8,082 nucleotides of DNA from an uncultured Actinomycetes bacterium (GTDB taxonomy: Bacteria; Actinomycetota; Thermoleophilia; Solirubrobacterales; Thermoleophilaceae). Numbering within the stretch: position 1 is the first letter of the stretch; each line of letters begins with the position of its first letter. The stretch spans positions 1 through 8,082 of the forward strand of contig CAMLNW010000122.1 in NCBI GenBank assembly GCA_946481495.1. Direction: 5' to 3'. The translations under genes were made by a program, and so were the position numbers. The notes below the pieces were generated by a model that searched no databases, was not told the origin of the DNA, and worked only from the letters and a program-made list of their open reading frames with translations. Shown in pieces: positions 1,471 to 7,355 of the stretch.

Positions 1471-1935
1471 ATGGGGCTCTTCAAGAAGGCGAAGGATCAG
1501 ATGGCACAGGCTCAGGATGCGATGAGCCAGGCGGCCGGGGCGCAGCAGATGGCCGACGACGCGATGGCGCAGGCGGGGATGGCCGGCCAGAGCGTGAACA
1601 TGGGCAACGCGGCCGGGATGGCGCAGCAGGGGATGGCCGACCGCGGCGCGCTCGAGCAGCAGGCGCACGAGCAGAACCGGATCCTCGGGATCGGGTCGCC
1701 GGGCGTGGCGACGATCAAGGGGCATGTCGACACCGGCGAGCAGGTGGCGGGCAACCCGGTCTGGATGCTCGAGGTCGAGATTGCGCCCGAGGGCGGCGCG
1801 CCCTACACGGTCCAGAAGCGCGAGATCATCTCCTCGGTCGCGATGAGCGGCTACGCCGACGGCACGACGATGCCGTGCCGGATCGACCCGGCGGACCCGA
1901 ACACGTTCGCGTTCGGCGAGAAGCCGTTCATGTAG
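1471..1935 (+). CDS. Met/Ala/Gln-rich helix plus beta-domain protein, first of a paralogous trio
   Basis: The gene encodes 154 residues of unknown function. Residues 1-60 form a Met/Ala/Gln-rich helical segment beginning MGLFKKAKDQMAQAQDAMSQ, with no signal peptide. From about residue 78 comes a beta-rich domain: GVATIKGHVDTGEQV, then VWMLEVEI, PYTVQKREI and RIDPADP (residues 137-143). In actinobacteria, small proteins with a DTG...PYT...VDP.DP domain are often found next to membrane or SHOCT-type segments; that resemblance is from memory and not tested. The same domain recurs in the next two genes at nearly the same residue position. The lead-in MGLFKK looks like an amphipathic membrane-binding start, which is inference. 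The gene is probably first in the 1471-2985 operon, with 88 bases to the next start. Confidence 0.85.
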   Translation: MGLFKKAKDQMAQAQDAMSQAAGAQQMADDAMAQAGMAGQSVNMGNAAGMAQQGMADRGALEQQAHEQNRILGIGSPGVATIKGHVDTGEQVAGNPVWMLEVEIAPEGGAPYTVQKREIISSVAMSGYADGTTMPCRIDPADPNTFAFGEKPFM

Positions 1936-1939
1936 CGCT

Positions 1940-1975
1940 CGGCGGAGAAGTCCCGCCGTCGGCGTAATTCCGCCG
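1940..1975 (+). other. Two adjacent small GC hairpins between paralogous genes
   Basis: CGGCGG (1940-1945) can pair with CCGCCG (1953-1958) across a 7-base loop. Immediately after, CGGCG (1960-1964) can pair with CGCCG (1971-1975) across the loop TAATTC. No T-run follows. They could be an mRNA processing or partial termination element within the trio, or just chance in GC-rich DNA. Confidence 0.25.
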
Positions 1976-2007
1976 GTTCCCGCCCGTTGGACGGTCACAA
2001 CCGCAAC

Positions 2008-2015
2008 GGAAGGAG
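2008..2015 (+). promoter_or_regulatory. Strong ribosome binding site for the gene at 2024
   Basis: GGAAGGAG sits eight bases before ATG 2024. It is one of the best Shine-Dalgarno matches in the window and suggests that the second gene of the trio is translated efficiently and independently of the first. Confidence 0.65.
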
Positions 2016-2023
2016 CAGTTCAG

Positions 2024-2470
2024 ATGGGGATGTTCAAGGACATGAAGGACATGGTCGGCGTCGTGCGCAGCGACGAGCTCAAGGAGCTCAAGAAGAAGGC
2101 GGACGCGCAGCCCAAGGTCTCGATGCTCGACGGCGTCAAGATGGCCAACCAGGCGATGGACCAGGCGCAGGAGATGCAGGCCGCGATGGCCTCGCAAGGC
2201 CTGAGCGCCAATCCGATGGCGAACATGGCCGCGATGTCGCAGGGCATCCAGGGCAGCGCCACCGTCAAGGGCACGACCGACACCGGCCAGAAGCTCGGCG
2301 ACGCGTCGGTCTACGACGTCGAGCTCGAGGTCCAGATCCCGAACGAGGCGCCCTACACCGTCGTCCACCGCCAGGCGATCGCGCTCGCGGCGCTGGGCAA
2401 CTGGCAGCCGGGCAAGCTTTGGCCGGTGCGCGTCGATCCGAGCGACCGCTCGAAAGTGATCATCGGCTGA
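2024..2470 (+). CDS. Helix plus beta-domain protein, second of a paralogous trio
   Basis: The product has 148 residues. It begins MGMFKDMKDMVGVVRSDELK, then has a charged and Met-rich helical stretch (MANQAMDQAQEMQAAMASQG) up to about residue 76. The beta-domain starts at residue 77 with GSATVKGTTDTGQKLG and continues with YDVELEVQI, PYTVVHRQAIALAAL and VRVDPSD at residues 135-141. It matches the upstream protein in the start (MG.FK), the overall layout, the DTG, the PYTV and the [VI]DP.D signature, so the two are almost certainly paralogues. No signal peptide or membrane helix is visible. TGA 2468-2470 shares its last base with the next ATG, so translation of the membrane protein downstream is probably coupled. 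The function is unknown; a peripheral partner of that membrane protein is a plausible inference. Confidence 0.87.
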   Translation: MGMFKDMKDMVGVVRSDELKELKKKADAQPKVSMLDGVKMANQAMDQAQEMQAAMASQGLSANPMANMAAMSQGIQGSATVKGTTDTGQKLGDASVYDVELEVQIPNEAPYTVVHRQAIALAALGNWQPGKLWPVRVDPSDRSKVIIG

Positions 2471-2985
2471 TGCGCTACATGGTCTACAGCGGCTATCTGA
2501 TGATCGTCGTCGGCCTCGTAATGGTCGTCGGCGGGACGATCGGCGGCATGGCCGGCGGACCAGCCGCGGCCGGCCTGCTGCTCGGCGTCGGCGGTGGCGG
2601 TCTCGGCTGCGCGGCGGGCGGCTGGTTCATGGTCTGGCTCGGCCGTGGCTGGGATACGCCACTCGACAGCGCGGCCGACCTCCACAAGTACGGCCGCCCG
2701 GCGAACGCCGAGGTGGTGTCGGTCGAGGGCGCCCAGCTCGATGCCGCCGGCACCCGCACCGCGAAGCTGTCGCTGCGCGTTAGCCCGACCAACGAGAGCG
2801 AGTACAAGACCACCCGCACAGTCGCGATTCCCGGCGGTCGCGTGCCGAACGTGGGCGAGACCGTGACCGTGAAGTTCGACCCGAACAGCCGCAAGGACTT
2901 CGTGCTGCTCGAGCAGAGCTTCGAGGTCAAGGACCACGTCACCCAGGCCGCCGACGCCTACTTCGGCGGCCTCCAGAAGAGCTAG
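2470..2985 (+). CDS. Two-helix membrane protein with the same beta-domain, third of the trio
   Basis: The 171-residue product has two N-terminal membrane helices. The first is at about residues 5-28 (YLMIVVGLVMVVGGTIGG); the second, very Gly-rich, is at about 32-60 and ends WFMVWLGRG. From residue 78 a beta-rich domain follows: ANAEVVSVEGAQLDAAG, then KLSLRVSP, YKTTRTVAI, VGETVTVKFDPNS (V134 to P138) and DFVLLEQ. The ordering of strands and the FDP motif parallel the VDP.D region of the two upstream proteins, and the domain begins at the same residue number, although the DTG is absent. The layout recalls DUF3592-type membrane proteins, a resemblance from memory. The start at ATG 2470 is fixed by the TGATG overlap with the preceding gene; the same frame is open back to 1987, but that stretch only shadows the upstream gene. 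With two helices, the domain faces the same side as the N-terminus. Confidence 0.85.
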   Translation: MRYMVYSGYLMIVVGLVMVVGGTIGGMAGGPAAAGLLLGVGGGGLGCAAGGWFMVWLGRGWDTPLDSAADLHKYGRPANAEVVSVEGAQLDAAGTRTAKLSLRVSPTNESEYKTTRTVAIPGGRVPNVGETVTVKFDPNSRKDFVLLEQSFEVKDHVTQAADAYFGGLQKS

Positions 2986-3048: not shown

Positions 3049-3351
3049 ATGGACCCAGCCGCACTGCGAAACCGCTTGCTCGTCGTCACCGGGATGTGGC
3101 GCGACGCCACCGACGAGCCGCTGCCGAAGCTGCCTGCGGGCGATCCGGTGGCCCAGATCGAGGCGTTCGAGCTGCAAGTCGTGGACCGAATGTTCGCCGA
3201 CGCGACTCCTGAGAGCGCAAGACGGGTAGCAGACAGGACATGGGATCTCGTGCACGACCGTTTGGACGACGATCCGGTCAAGCAGCGGGTAGTGGAGGGA
3301 CACGAGCAGCTGGCGAAGCTCTCCGCCGGGGGCCTGACGGCTCCGGAGTAA
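3049..3351 (+). CDS. Unknown 100-aa helical protein encoded just upstream of the sensor phosphatase/kinase gene
   Basis: The frame runs from ATG 3049 to TAA 3349-3351. I do not recognise the family. The protein looks soluble and mostly helical, beginning MDPAALRNRLLVVTGMWRDA, with AQIEAFELQVVDRMFADA and VADRTWDLVHDRL later and a short Gly/Pro-containing end. There is no membrane segment, Cys/His cluster or STAS-like serine motif, so it does not look like an anti-anti-sigma factor. No clear Shine-Dalgarno precedes the ATG, which follows the 2992-3031 hairpin closely. Its stop is only five bases before the GTG of the large signalling gene, and the latter's ribosome binding site lies inside this gene's last codons. 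The two are therefore probably co-expressed, and it may be a partner or regulator of that sensor (inference from context only). Confidence 0.7.
   Translation: MDPAALRNRLLVVTGMWRDATDEPLPKLPAGDPVAQIEAFELQVVDRMFADATPESARRVADRTWDLVHDRLDDDPVKQRVVEGHEQLAKLSAGGLTAPE
3345..3348 (+). promoter_or_regulatory. Ribosome binding site that decides the GTG start at 3357
   Basis: GGAG lies eight bases before GTG 3357 and overlaps the end of the preceding gene. The frame is open back to 3240, but that part overlaps the preceding gene and reads as Arg/Gly-rich shadow. The protein from GTG begins MADSPELFSRAL just before the first membrane helix. Confidence 0.6.
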
Positions 3352-3356
3352 CGCTC

Positions 3357-5918
3357 GTGGCGGATTCGCCCGAGCTCTTCAGCCGCGCCCTGATGGCGCG
3401 GTGGATGGCCTATCTCTTCACGGGGGGCGCTTTCGTCGGCTGCTTGACGCTCGCCTTCCCGCACGACCCGGGCGTCCAGGACGGCCCGCTCTACGCGCTC
3501 GCCGGGATGGCCGTCGCGATCGGCCTGTTCGTGCTCTGGAGGGCCGAGTCGATCCCGAGCTGGGGGATGCACGTCGCGCTCGCCGCCGGCAGCGTGATCC
3601 TCGCGGCCGGCAACTACTTCGTCGGGCCGAGCGGCCTCTACCTGATCATCTTCACCTGGACCGGCCTCTACGCCTTCTACTTCTACAAGCCGAAGGTGGC
3701 GCTAATCCACCTCGGCATCATCGGCCTGGCCTACTTCGTCGTGCTGGTGCTGCAGGACCCGCCGAGCCCGATCGTGCGCTGGGTGCTCGCGATCGGCACG
3801 CCCGGGATCGCCGGCCTGATGATCTCGACGCTGCTCGACCGCGTCCGCAACGAGGCCGCCCAGACCGCGCGCCAGGAGCAGGGGCTGCGTGAGAGCGAGG
3901 CGCGCACGCGGGCGATCGTCGACAGCGCGCCGGAGCCGTTCCTCGGCGTCGCCGAGGATGGGACCGTCGTCTCCTGGAATCCCGCGGCGGGGCGGGTGTT
4001 CGGCTGGACGGTGGAGGAAGCGCTCGGCCAGCCGATCCGCGACCTGATCATCGTTCCCGAGAACTACGACGACCATCTGCAGCGCCGCGAGGAGGAGTTC
4101 ACCCGCCCGGACGGTGAGACACGGCCGTCGAAGCGCGAGGTCGAGCTGCTGCGCAAGAGCGGCGAGCGCTTTCTCGCCGAGGTCACCTACTCGCGCGTGC
4201 GCGCGGGCGACCGGCCGATGCTCGCCTGCTTTATCCGCGACGTCAGCGACCGCGAGCAGCGTGAGCGCGAGCGGGCCGAGCTCTACCGCGAGCAGGCGGC
4301 GCGCGAGGAGGCCGAGCAGATGGCCGGGATCGTCCACGGCCTGCAGATGCTGCTCGACGTCGCGCTCGCCCACCAGCGGCTCGACGAGATGCTCGAGGCG
4401 CTGCTGCCGCGCGTCTGCGAGGTCGTCAACGCCGAGGCGGCAGCGGTGCTGCTGAGCGAGGAGGACGGCTCGCTGCTGCTGCGCGCCTCGATGTTCGGCC
4501 CGATCGGGAGCGACGACGAGCCGCTGCGGATCGAGCTCGGCCAGGGGATCGCGGGTCGCGTCGCACGCGATCGCCAGCCGCTGCTGGTCCAGGATCCCGA
4601 CCCGTCCGAGGTCGCCGACCCGGCGCTGCACGGCGTCCACTCGATCCTCGGCGTGCCGCTACTCGCCGGCGGTGAGGTCGCCGGGGTGCTGCAGGTCGGC
4701 GTTCCGTCGCCGCGCCGCTTCTCCGAGGACGACCTGATGCTGCTCGGTCTGGCGGCCGACCGTGTCGCGCTGGCGATCGACCACCTGCGCGTCTACGAGC
4801 GCGAGCACCGGATCGCCGAGACGCTCCAGCGCAGCCTGCTGCCGGAGCGGCTGCCGCGGCTGCCCGGGCTCGAGGTCGCGGCGCGCTACCAGCCGGCGGC
4901 GAGCGAGTCCGAGGTCGGCGGCGACTGGTACGACGTGATCGCGATGCCCGGCGGGAAGGTCGGCCTGGTGATGGGCGATGTCGCCGGCAAGGGGCTGGCG
5001 GCCGCGTCGATGGTCGGCCGGCTGCGCAGCGCAATGCGCGCCTACGCGCTCGAGGGCCACGCGCCGGCCGACGTCGTCGAGCGGCTCAACCAGCTCGTCT
5101 GGTCCGAAGTCGAGGACAGCCACATGACGACGATGGTCTACGTCGTGCTCGACCCGCTCGAAGGGCGCGTCACCTGGGTCAACGCCGGCCACCTGCCGCC
5201 GCTCGCGGTGACCAGCGACGGCATGGCGCGCTTCCTCGAGGGCTCCAGCTCGGTCCCGCTCGGCGTCATGTCCTATCCCGCCTACGAGGCCTCGGAGACC
5301 GAGATGCCGCTCGGCGGCACGGTGCTGCTCTACACCGACGGGCTCGTCGAGCGACCGGGCGAGCTGCTCGACGACGGACTCGACCGGCTGTCGGCCGCGG
5401 TCCGCGGCGAGCGCGTCGGACCGGAGGAGCTGTGCGATCACGTGCTCGAGCAGCTGGTGCCGTCGCTGGGCGTAGCCGACGACGTCGCGCTGCTCGCGCT
5501 CTGCAGCCCACGGCTGTCCGACAGTTTCCGGCTCGAGCTCGGCTCCGAACCCGGCGAGCTGGCCGCGCTGCGGGCGCTGCTGCGACGCTGGCTGCGCAAC
5601 GCCAACGGCGACGAGATCGAGATCGCCGAGATCCTGACGGCGGTCGGCGAGGCGGCGGCGAACGCGATCGAGCATGGGGGATCGATTGCCGGTGGGCCAC
5701 CGTTCGAGGTCACTGGCAGCCTCGATGGCGACGACGTCGAGATCGTCATCGCCGACTCGGGCGGCTGGCGCGAGGGCCGGCGCTCGGAGGGTGGCCGCGG
5801 GCTGATGCTGATGCGCTCGTTGATGGATACGGTCGAGGTCGATCCTGGGGCCGACGGGACTACCGTCACGATGCGGCGCCAGCTGGGCGTCGAGGCGCCC
5901 GCCGCAGGCCAGCTTTGA
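3357..5918 (+). CDS. Membrane PAS-GAF-SpoIIE phosphatase fused to an RsbW-type HATPase kinase
   Basis: The 853-residue protein is a membrane-bound partner-switching regulator. Six helices span about residues 15-160. A PAS domain follows at about 180-295 (RAIVDSAPEPFLGVAEDG, VVSWNPAAGRVFGW), then a GAF domain at about 322-478 (AEAAAVLLSEEDG, GQGIAGRVARDRQPLLVQDP). A SpoIIE/RsbU-type PP2C phosphatase occupies about 490-717. Its metal-site motifs are intact: GGDWYD (D523, D526), GDVAGKG (D541), NAGHLPPL (from N609), LYTDGLVE (D661) and ADDVALL (D708, D709). The C-terminal HATPase domain (about 722-845) has an N-box, EAAANAIEHG (E765, N769, H773), ADSGG (D800) and GGRGL (812-816), so ATP binding looks possible. 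In this family the phosphatase reactivates an anti-anti-sigma protein while the kinase phosphorylates it or binds a sigma factor. Mycobacterial Rv1364c is a comparable fusion but also has a STAS domain, which is absent here. The cognate STAS protein and sigma factor must lie outside the window. Confidence 0.93.
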   Translation: MADSPELFSRALMARWMAYLFTGGAFVGCLTLAFPHDPGVQDGPLYALAGMAVAIGLFVLWRAESIPSWGMHVALAAGSVILAAGNYFVGPSGLYLIIFTWTGLYAFYFYKPKVALIHLGIIGLAYFVVLVLQDPPSPIVRWVLAIGTPGIAGLMISTLLDRVRNEAAQTARQEQGLRESEARTRAIVDSAPEPFLGVAEDGTVVSWNPAAGRVFGWTVEEALGQPIRDLIIVPENYDDHLQRREEEFTRPDGETRPSKREVELLRKSGERFLAEVTYSRVRAGDRPMLACFIRDVSDREQRERERAELYREQAAREEAEQMAGIVHGLQMLLDVALAHQRLDEMLEALLPRVCEVVNAEAAAVLLSEEDGSLLLRASMFGPIGSDDEPLRIELGQGIAGRVARDRQPLLVQDPDPSEVADPALHGVHSILGVPLLAGGEVAGVLQVGVPSPRRFSEDDLMLLGLAADRVALAIDHLRVYEREHRIAETLQRSLLPERLPRLPGLEVAARYQPAASESEVGGDWYDVIAMPGGKVGLVMGDVAGKGLAAASMVGRLRSAMRAYALEGHAPADVVERLNQLVWSEVEDSHMTTMVYVVLDPLEGRVTWVNAGHLPPLAVTSDGMARFLEGSSSVPLGVMSYPAYEASETEMPLGGTVLLYTDGLVERPGELLDDGLDRLSAAVRGERVGPEELCDHVLEQLVPSLGVADDVALLALCSPRLSDSFRLELGSEPGELAALRALLRRWLRNANGDEIEIAEILTAVGEAAANAIEHGGSIAGGPPFEVTGSLDGDDVEIVIADSGGWREGRRSEGGRGLMLMRSLMDTVEVDPGADGTTVTMRRQLGVEAPAAGQL

Positions 5919-5937
5919 AACCAGCCGGGAACTCAGT

Positions 5938-5947
5938 TGGCCGGCCA
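5938..5947. other. Perfect 10-bp palindrome upstream of the monooxygenase gene
   Basis: TGGCCGGCCA lies in the 54-base gap between the kinase gene and the GTG at 5973. It might be a regulator half-site cluster or a weak hairpin, but short GC palindromes are frequent in DNA of this composition. Confidence 0.15.
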
Positions 5948-5972
5948 GCCAGTGTCCGGTAGGCTCCGAACG

Positions 5973-7355
5973 GTGAGCACTTCCAGTAGACGTGTATGTG
6001 TGATTGGCGCCGGCAGCTCGGGCATTGCGAGCTGCCAGGTCCTCAACGCCCGCGGCATCGATTTCGACTGTTACGAGCAGGGCTCGGGCGTCGGCGGCAA
6101 CTGGCGCTATGGCAACGACAACGGGATGTCTTCCGCCTACGAATCGCTGTTCATCAACACGTCGCGCAAGATCATGGAGTACGCGGCCTACCCGATGCCG
6201 AAGTCCTATCCGGACTACCCGCATCACAGGCAGATCGCGGCCTACTTCGACGACTACGTCGACCACTTCGGCTTCCGCGACAAGATCGCGTTCCGCACCG
6301 AGGTGACGAGCGTCGAGCAGGCATCGGAGGGTGGCTGGAACGTCAGCATGCGCTCCGTCGATGGCGGCGACGAGCGGACCACCCACTACAACGACGTAAT
6401 GATCGCCAACGGTCACCACTGGGACCCGCGCTGGCCGGAGCCTGACTTTCCCGGCGAGCTCGATGACTCGGTCGAGGTGACCCACGCTCACTACTACCGC
6501 AACTCCAAGGGCTACGAGGACAAGAACGTGCTCGTGCTCGGGATCGGCAACTCGGCCTGTGACATCGCCGTCGAGACCTCGCGCGTGTCGAAGATGACCT
6601 ACCTGGCGATGCGCCGCGGTGCTTGGATCGTTCCGAAGTACATCGGCTCGACGCCGATCGACGAGATCGCGCCCGGCTGGATCGCACGCTGGGCGCCATT
6701 CTGGCTGCAGCGCCTCTTCCTTCAGATGACGATCAACCGCGCTCAGGGCGACCCGACCGAGTTCGGCCTGCCGAAGCCCGACCACCGGATCGCCGAGGCT
6801 CACCCGACGGTCTCGTCCGACCTGCTGCCGCGGATCGGACACGGACGGATCACCGTCAAGCCGAACATCAAGCAGTTCGAGGGCGACTCGGTTCGCTTCG
6901 TCGACGGCTCGGTCGAGCAGATCGACCGGATCGTCTACTGCACCGGCTACAAGATCAGCTTCCCGTTCATCGACCACGAGTTGCTCGACCCGTCGGGCGA
7001 CAACCGGATCGAGCTCTACCGCAAGGTCGTTCACCCCGACCTCGCCGGTCTCTACTTCATCGGCCTGATCCAGCCGCTCGGGGCGATCATGCCGATCGCC
7101 GAGCTGCAGTCCGAGTGGGTCGCCGATGTGGTCGAGGGCAAGGTGCCGCTGCCCGACCGGCCCGAGATGCTGACCGAGATCGCCGCCGACCAGGCCGCGA
7201 TGCGCAAGCGCTACGTCGCCTCGAAGCGACACACGATTCAGGTCGACTACTGGCCGTACCTGTACCAGCTGCGCGACGAGCGCAAGCGGCGGGCGCTGGC
7301 CCCACAATCTGGTGCGCCCGCGGGGGACACCGCCAAGGAGGAGATTGCCGCATGA
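5973..7355 (+). CDS. Class B flavin-containing monooxygenase (FAD/NADPH)
   Basis: The predicted 460-residue enzyme uses FAD, NADPH and O2 to oxygenate a small substrate (N-, S- or Baeyer-Villiger-type oxidation). The FAD-binding Rossmann motif is VIGAGSSG (G12-A-G-S-S-G17), with E35 at the end of the second strand and VGGNW (G41 to W44). The NADPH motif is VLVLGIGNSACDIAVE (G190, G192, A195 in place of the third Gly). VYCTGY (323-326) is the usual C-terminal TG motif. The FMO signature region reads PDFPGELDDSVEVTHAHYYR: H171 and Y175 are present, but the F and G of FxGxxxH are not. Length is typical of bacterial FMOs. GTG 5973 was chosen because GAGSSG then falls at residue 12, with GGTAGG nine bases upstream; TTG 5937 and GTG 5952 are alternatives. 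The stop overlaps the aldehyde dehydrogenase start, so the two enzymes probably act together; the substrate is unknown. Confidence 0.9.
   Translation: MSTSSRRVCVIGAGSSGIASCQVLNARGIDFDCYEQGSGVGGNWRYGNDNGMSSAYESLFINTSRKIMEYAAYPMPKSYPDYPHHRQIAAYFDDYVDHFGFRDKIAFRTEVTSVEQASEGGWNVSMRSVDGGDERTTHYNDVMIANGHHWDPRWPEPDFPGELDDSVEVTHAHYYRNSKGYEDKNVLVLGIGNSACDIAVETSRVSKMTYLAMRRGAWIVPKYIGSTPIDEIAPGWIARWAPFWLQRLFLQMTINRAQGDPTEFGLPKPDHRIAEAHPTVSSDLLPRIGHGRITVKPNIKQFEGDSVRFVDGSVEQIDRIVYCTGYKISFPFIDHELLDPSGDNRIELYRKVVHPDLAGLYFIGLIQPLGAIMPIAELQSEWVADVVEGKVPLPDRPEMLTEIAADQAAMRKRYVASKRHTIQVDYWPYLYQLRDERKRRALAPQSGAPAGDTAKEEIAA
7335..7343 (+). promoter_or_regulatory. Strong ribosome binding site for the aldehyde dehydrogenase gene
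   Basis: AAGGAGGAG lies inside the last codons of the monooxygenase gene, with its GGAGG core ten bases before ATG 7352. It supports that start and efficient coupled translation of the pair. Confidence 0.65.

Follow-up and report, generated by a model that had tools for sequence, protein, structure and literature searches.

The question raised by this locus is whether three small consecutive genes, called A, B, and C here, make up one working set or only lie side by side. They are found in a window of 8,082 nucleotides (the whole stretch of DNA analyzed) from the Thermoleophilia, a class described as common in soils but rarely cultivated, whose class-specific proteins are listed as of unknown function (PMC6544083). 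The analysis identifies the trio as a real and recurring gene set that has no name but whose domain is of a known kind. Recurring as one predicted membrane anchor and two related partners, it is a defined set for testing.

Layout of the locus

Reading of the ORFs confirmed three same-strand ORFs at 1471–2985 of the window, with the following features:

1471..1935, + strand: gene A, 154 aa, without a membrane helix; a Met/Gln-rich N-terminal half, then an OB-like domain; GGGAGG precedes the ATG at 1471
1693..1917, + strand: OB-like domain of A, about residues 75–149, assigned by profile comparisons of sequences (the AlphaFold2 models cover B and C only)
2024..2470, + strand: gene B, 148 aa, without a membrane helix; a Met-rich N-terminal half, then an OB-like domain; GGAAGGAG precedes the start
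2246..2467, + strand: OB-like domain of B, residues 75–148, assigned by AlphaFold2 model and fold searches (OB folds)
2470..2985, + strand: gene C, 171 aa; two predicted membrane helices, then an OB-like domain
2473..2652, + strand: the predicted transmembrane pair of C, modeled as helices at residues 2–26 and 31–61
2695..2907, + strand: OB-like domain of C, residues 76–146, assigned by domain profiles, AlphaFold2 model, and fold searches

The start of A was set at 1471, within a longer ORF that opens at 1459, and the MGLFK start is kept in relatives. As a preliminary description of this DNA had it, the first two products carry a Met-rich half that begins with MG.FK, both N-termini reading MG(L/M)FK. 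A gap of 88 bases separates A from B, the stop of B and the ATG of C overlap by one base (TGATG), and the trio may be co-transcribed.

Upstream lie a TetR-type regulator (129–818, Pfam scan) and, directly before A, a small 70-aa ORF (1216–1428) with no convincing family match. Downstream of the trio is a large sensor phosphatase composed of PAS, GAF, SpoIIE phosphatase, and HATPase domains (ORF 3240–5918, the start probably near 3358 as judged by eye), and between it and C is a 100-aa ORF (3049–3351) without a Pfam match at E ≤ 1. These are followed by a flavin monooxygenase-like protein (5937–7355, Pfam scan) and an ORF that starts at 7352, runs off the window end, and looks by eye like an aldehyde dehydrogenase.

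The common C-terminal domain

Judged from sequence, A, B, and C have in common one C-terminal domain of ~75 residues, the relationship being strong between A and B, remote between B and C, and marginal between A and C. A and B match by BLASTP (2e-17), by full profiles (E 2.6e-25), and with the domains cut out (hhalign E 4.2e-21, probability 99%), and their origin as clear paralogs by duplication is well supported by these alignments. For B and C, BLASTP finds no match in the domain (E 0.74), and the domain profiles align over 72 columns (hhalign E 3.7e-5, probability 71%), scoring 29.5 where the best of the shuffles reaches 23.2. For A and C, BLASTP gives E 0.043 over 57 columns, and hhalign gives E 0.0075 with a probability of 5%, the profile score of 18.6 exceeding the shuffle maximum of 16.9 by a small margin. 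The hhalign E-values of these domain pairs each refer to one comparison; in all three pairs, 0 of 100 column shuffles reach the observed score, and reversed profiles score 14.9 (A–B), 11.4 (B–C), and 11.8 (A–C). Plain hmmsearch fails to join C to the other two, the C model giving E 1.2 against B and the A and B models not listing C at E ≤ 10. C thus appears to be a remote relative of B with a marginal match to A, and the proposal that three consecutive genes share a C-terminal domain is borne out by profile–profile alignment.

The AlphaFold2 model of B, with block means of 88–97 pLDDT from residue 71 on, has strands at 75–91, 94–104, 111–119, 132–137, and 145–147, and a helix at 121–127. The model of C has strands at 76–90, 96–105, 112–120, 131–136, and 144–146 and lacks the helix found in B. 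The strand order is identical, so that the two proteins modeled give no sign of the differing folds that would have counted against a shared domain. Fold searches with both models retrieve OB proteins, if weakly, such as IF1, CsaA, and a domain of Nmd3. Several chains of the DUF2500 structure 3q6c are also among the Foldseek rows for B (E 0.24–0.52, not significant), but DUF2500 is absent from the families listed for A, B, and C members at E ≤ 0.1.

The nearest named family by sequence is DUF3592 (PF12158), which is matched below the cut-off only. In the window, A scores 13.2 bits (E 0.15) against a gathering score of 25.3, and a Pfam scan of B and C gives no DUF3592 match at E ≤ 1. Among relatives, sub-threshold matches at E ≤ 0.1 occur in 20 of the 50 B, 4 of the 45 A, and 3 of the 48 C members, the best being at E 0.0017 in B members. 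DUF3592 is the commonest Pfam match among B and A members, and for C members DUF4131 (4/48) is listed ahead of it. In the literature searched, DUF3592 turned up in one paper, as an incidental mention, and the trio may help to assign a function to DUF3592-like domains.

The domain had also been described as lying in the same register in all three products, with a conserved Asp-Pro. The register holds in this genome but is not general among relatives, where the Asp lies at residues 94–146 in A members (137–139 in 7/45), 132–142 in B members (137–139 in 32/50), and 126–139 in C members (137–139 in 9/48). Because relatives of A and C differ in length and in Asp position, the common residue numbering is local to this genome and no family property. 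The Asp-Pro is kept in A (45/45) and C (47/48), but not in B, whose members have Asp-Gln in 35 and Asp-Pro in 11 of 50 cases.

N-terminal halves, topology, and descent

C is predicted to cross the membrane twice, and A and B are predicted to be without membrane helices. The model of C shows two long helices ahead of the domain, and a Kyte–Doolittle scan (19-residue) picks out a pair of hydrophobic stretches in 41 of 48 C members and a single one in the other 7. C of the window is one of the latter, only its residues 10–28 passing the scan, so that the two membrane helices proposed for it find agreement in the model and the family but only in part in its own hydropathy. In the 41 members with two stretches found, K+R averages 1.0 ahead of helix 1, 0 across the loop, and 1.2 over the 15 residues that follow helix 2, a charge bias that weakly favors a cytoplasmic location of the C domain.

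The N-terminal halves of A and B are Met-rich and poorly predicted. Tests for amphipathic helices and coiled coils give a weak signal for A and none for B: 19 of 45 A members show heptad/helical periodicity under 0.05 (median 0.055, A itself 0.09), as opposed to 1 of 50 B members (median 0.375, B itself 0.535). The split into two soluble or peripheral partners and one anchor, as first described, is a predicted one.

In a domain tree taking in 45 A, 50 B, and 16 of the 48 C members together with P0363 of Nonomuraea gerenzanensis (L036:2872–3333), each of the three proteins has a group of its own (support 0.672 for A, 0.751 for B, and 1.0 for C), and therefore, with modest support, the A/B split would predate the relatives sampled. 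P0363 has an A-like domain (hmmsearch 1.2e-5; hhalign E 4.3e-6 with A, 2.4e-5 with B, and 0.001 with part of C) and clusters with A in the tree (support 0.916), but carries two hydrophobic helices instead of the Met-rich half. Both kinds of N-terminal half, helix pair and Met-rich, thus occur with this domain. P0363 sits in a stretch of L036 without listed genes, the neighborhood being known from a domain scan of L036 alone. Of the suggested history of duplication followed by N-terminal replacement, the first step is well supported for A and B; P0363 makes the second, in one direction or the other, plausible for C.

Linkage and readings of the gene set

Recurrence in relatives was assessed by a proxy, in which listed best matches whose longest contigs are of equal size stand in for genes on the same contig, using the best 120 of 411 matches for A, of 239 for B, and of 180 for C. 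Among the matches listed, shared longest-contig sizes of at least 2 kb number 18 for A–C, 6 for A–B, and 6 for B–C, as compared to means of 0.40, 0.33, and 0.37 and maxima of 3, 3, and 2 in offset (shifted) controls. The sizes 16238 and 4161 are common to A, B, and C; so is 922, a size from the range under 2 kb, in which chance matches abound and only B–C (10 vs. a control maximum of 8) stands above control. Linkage of A, B, and C, as distinct from exact adjacency, therefore recurs in relatives far above chance on contigs of at least 2 kb, as judged by equal size. In addition, pairwise distances of A and C are correlated in those 7 of the 18 pairs for which both proteins are aligned (r 0.61, a value that 13 of 2000 permutations attain). 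In P0332, an A protein without an end runs in one frame into a B protein without a start; this is either a fusion or an assembly error and suggests that A adjoins B elsewhere. The few relatives named by organism are metagenome genomes of Solirubrobacterales and Thermoleophilaceae (P0155 for C; P0282, P0304, and P0343 for A).

The reading we tentatively favor, while giving it somewhat less than an even chance, is that of a linked set in which a membrane-held C docks the duplicated cytoplasmic A and B through related OB-type domains. In bacteria related to Solirubrobacterales/Thermoleophilaceae, A, B, and C would make up a small set of linked genes, each with a DUF3592-like OB-type domain. The two-helix hairpin of C would keep its domain at the membrane face, presumably the cytoplasmic one, where A and B may dock through their related domains, and the flexible Met-rich arms of A and B would stay free for a partner, for example, an unfolded or membrane-bound client. 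Such an A–B–C complex might have a chaperone-like or adaptor role. It is unlikely, though conceivable, that the trio is a lineage-specific three-part system in which Met-rich-armed OB duplicates on a membrane-anchored OB homolog form an unnamed bacterial client-binding scaffold.

A serious competitor, only slightly less likely, is that the small domain is common to proteins doing separate work, with adjacency reflecting old tandem duplication and shared regulation and no complex being formed. It would accord with A and B being duplicates, with the remote relationship of C, with the gap between A and B, and with P0363, which has the domain with two hydrophobic helices and whose partners, the gene table being empty there, are neither shown nor excluded. 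However, the linkage that recurs among the matches listed is most frequent for A and C, the most different pair, and the stop/start overlap of B and C also argues against separate work.

We consider it improbable that A and B are chaperone-like arms of a coiled coil plus OB (CC-OB), analogous to those of proteasomal ATPases, tethered by C. B shows a helix-plus-OB layout in its model, its fold matches include CsaA, an export chaperone, as well as OB domains from proteasomal ATPases, and CC-OB arms prevent aggregation of denatured proteins, as stated in PMC11222466. Yet the N-half helices of B are modeled at low confidence and OB matches are generic; the weak signals in A and missing signals in B for coiled coils and amphipathic helices speak against a simple CC-OB arm.

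More improbable still is that the trio, an NfeD-like OB anchor in the membrane and its partner proteins, acts in membrane microdomains as NfeD does together with flotillin: NfeD combines a membrane segment with a partner-bound, cytosolic five-stranded OB-like barrel (PMC11222466), a layout that C resembles in likewise pairing a membrane hairpin with an OB-like domain, but the list of 8 families matched by 48 C members at E ≤ 0.1 does not include NfeD, and no SPFH/flotillin match occurs among the eight window proteins scanned (the partial right-end gene lying outside the scan). NfeD serves as a working analogy for the trio, not as a family to which it belongs. Of the 120 listed C matches, 7 bear the source name “sporulation protein YlmC with PRC-barrel domain”; the families listed for the 48 C members at E ≤ 0.1 include no PRC-barrel.
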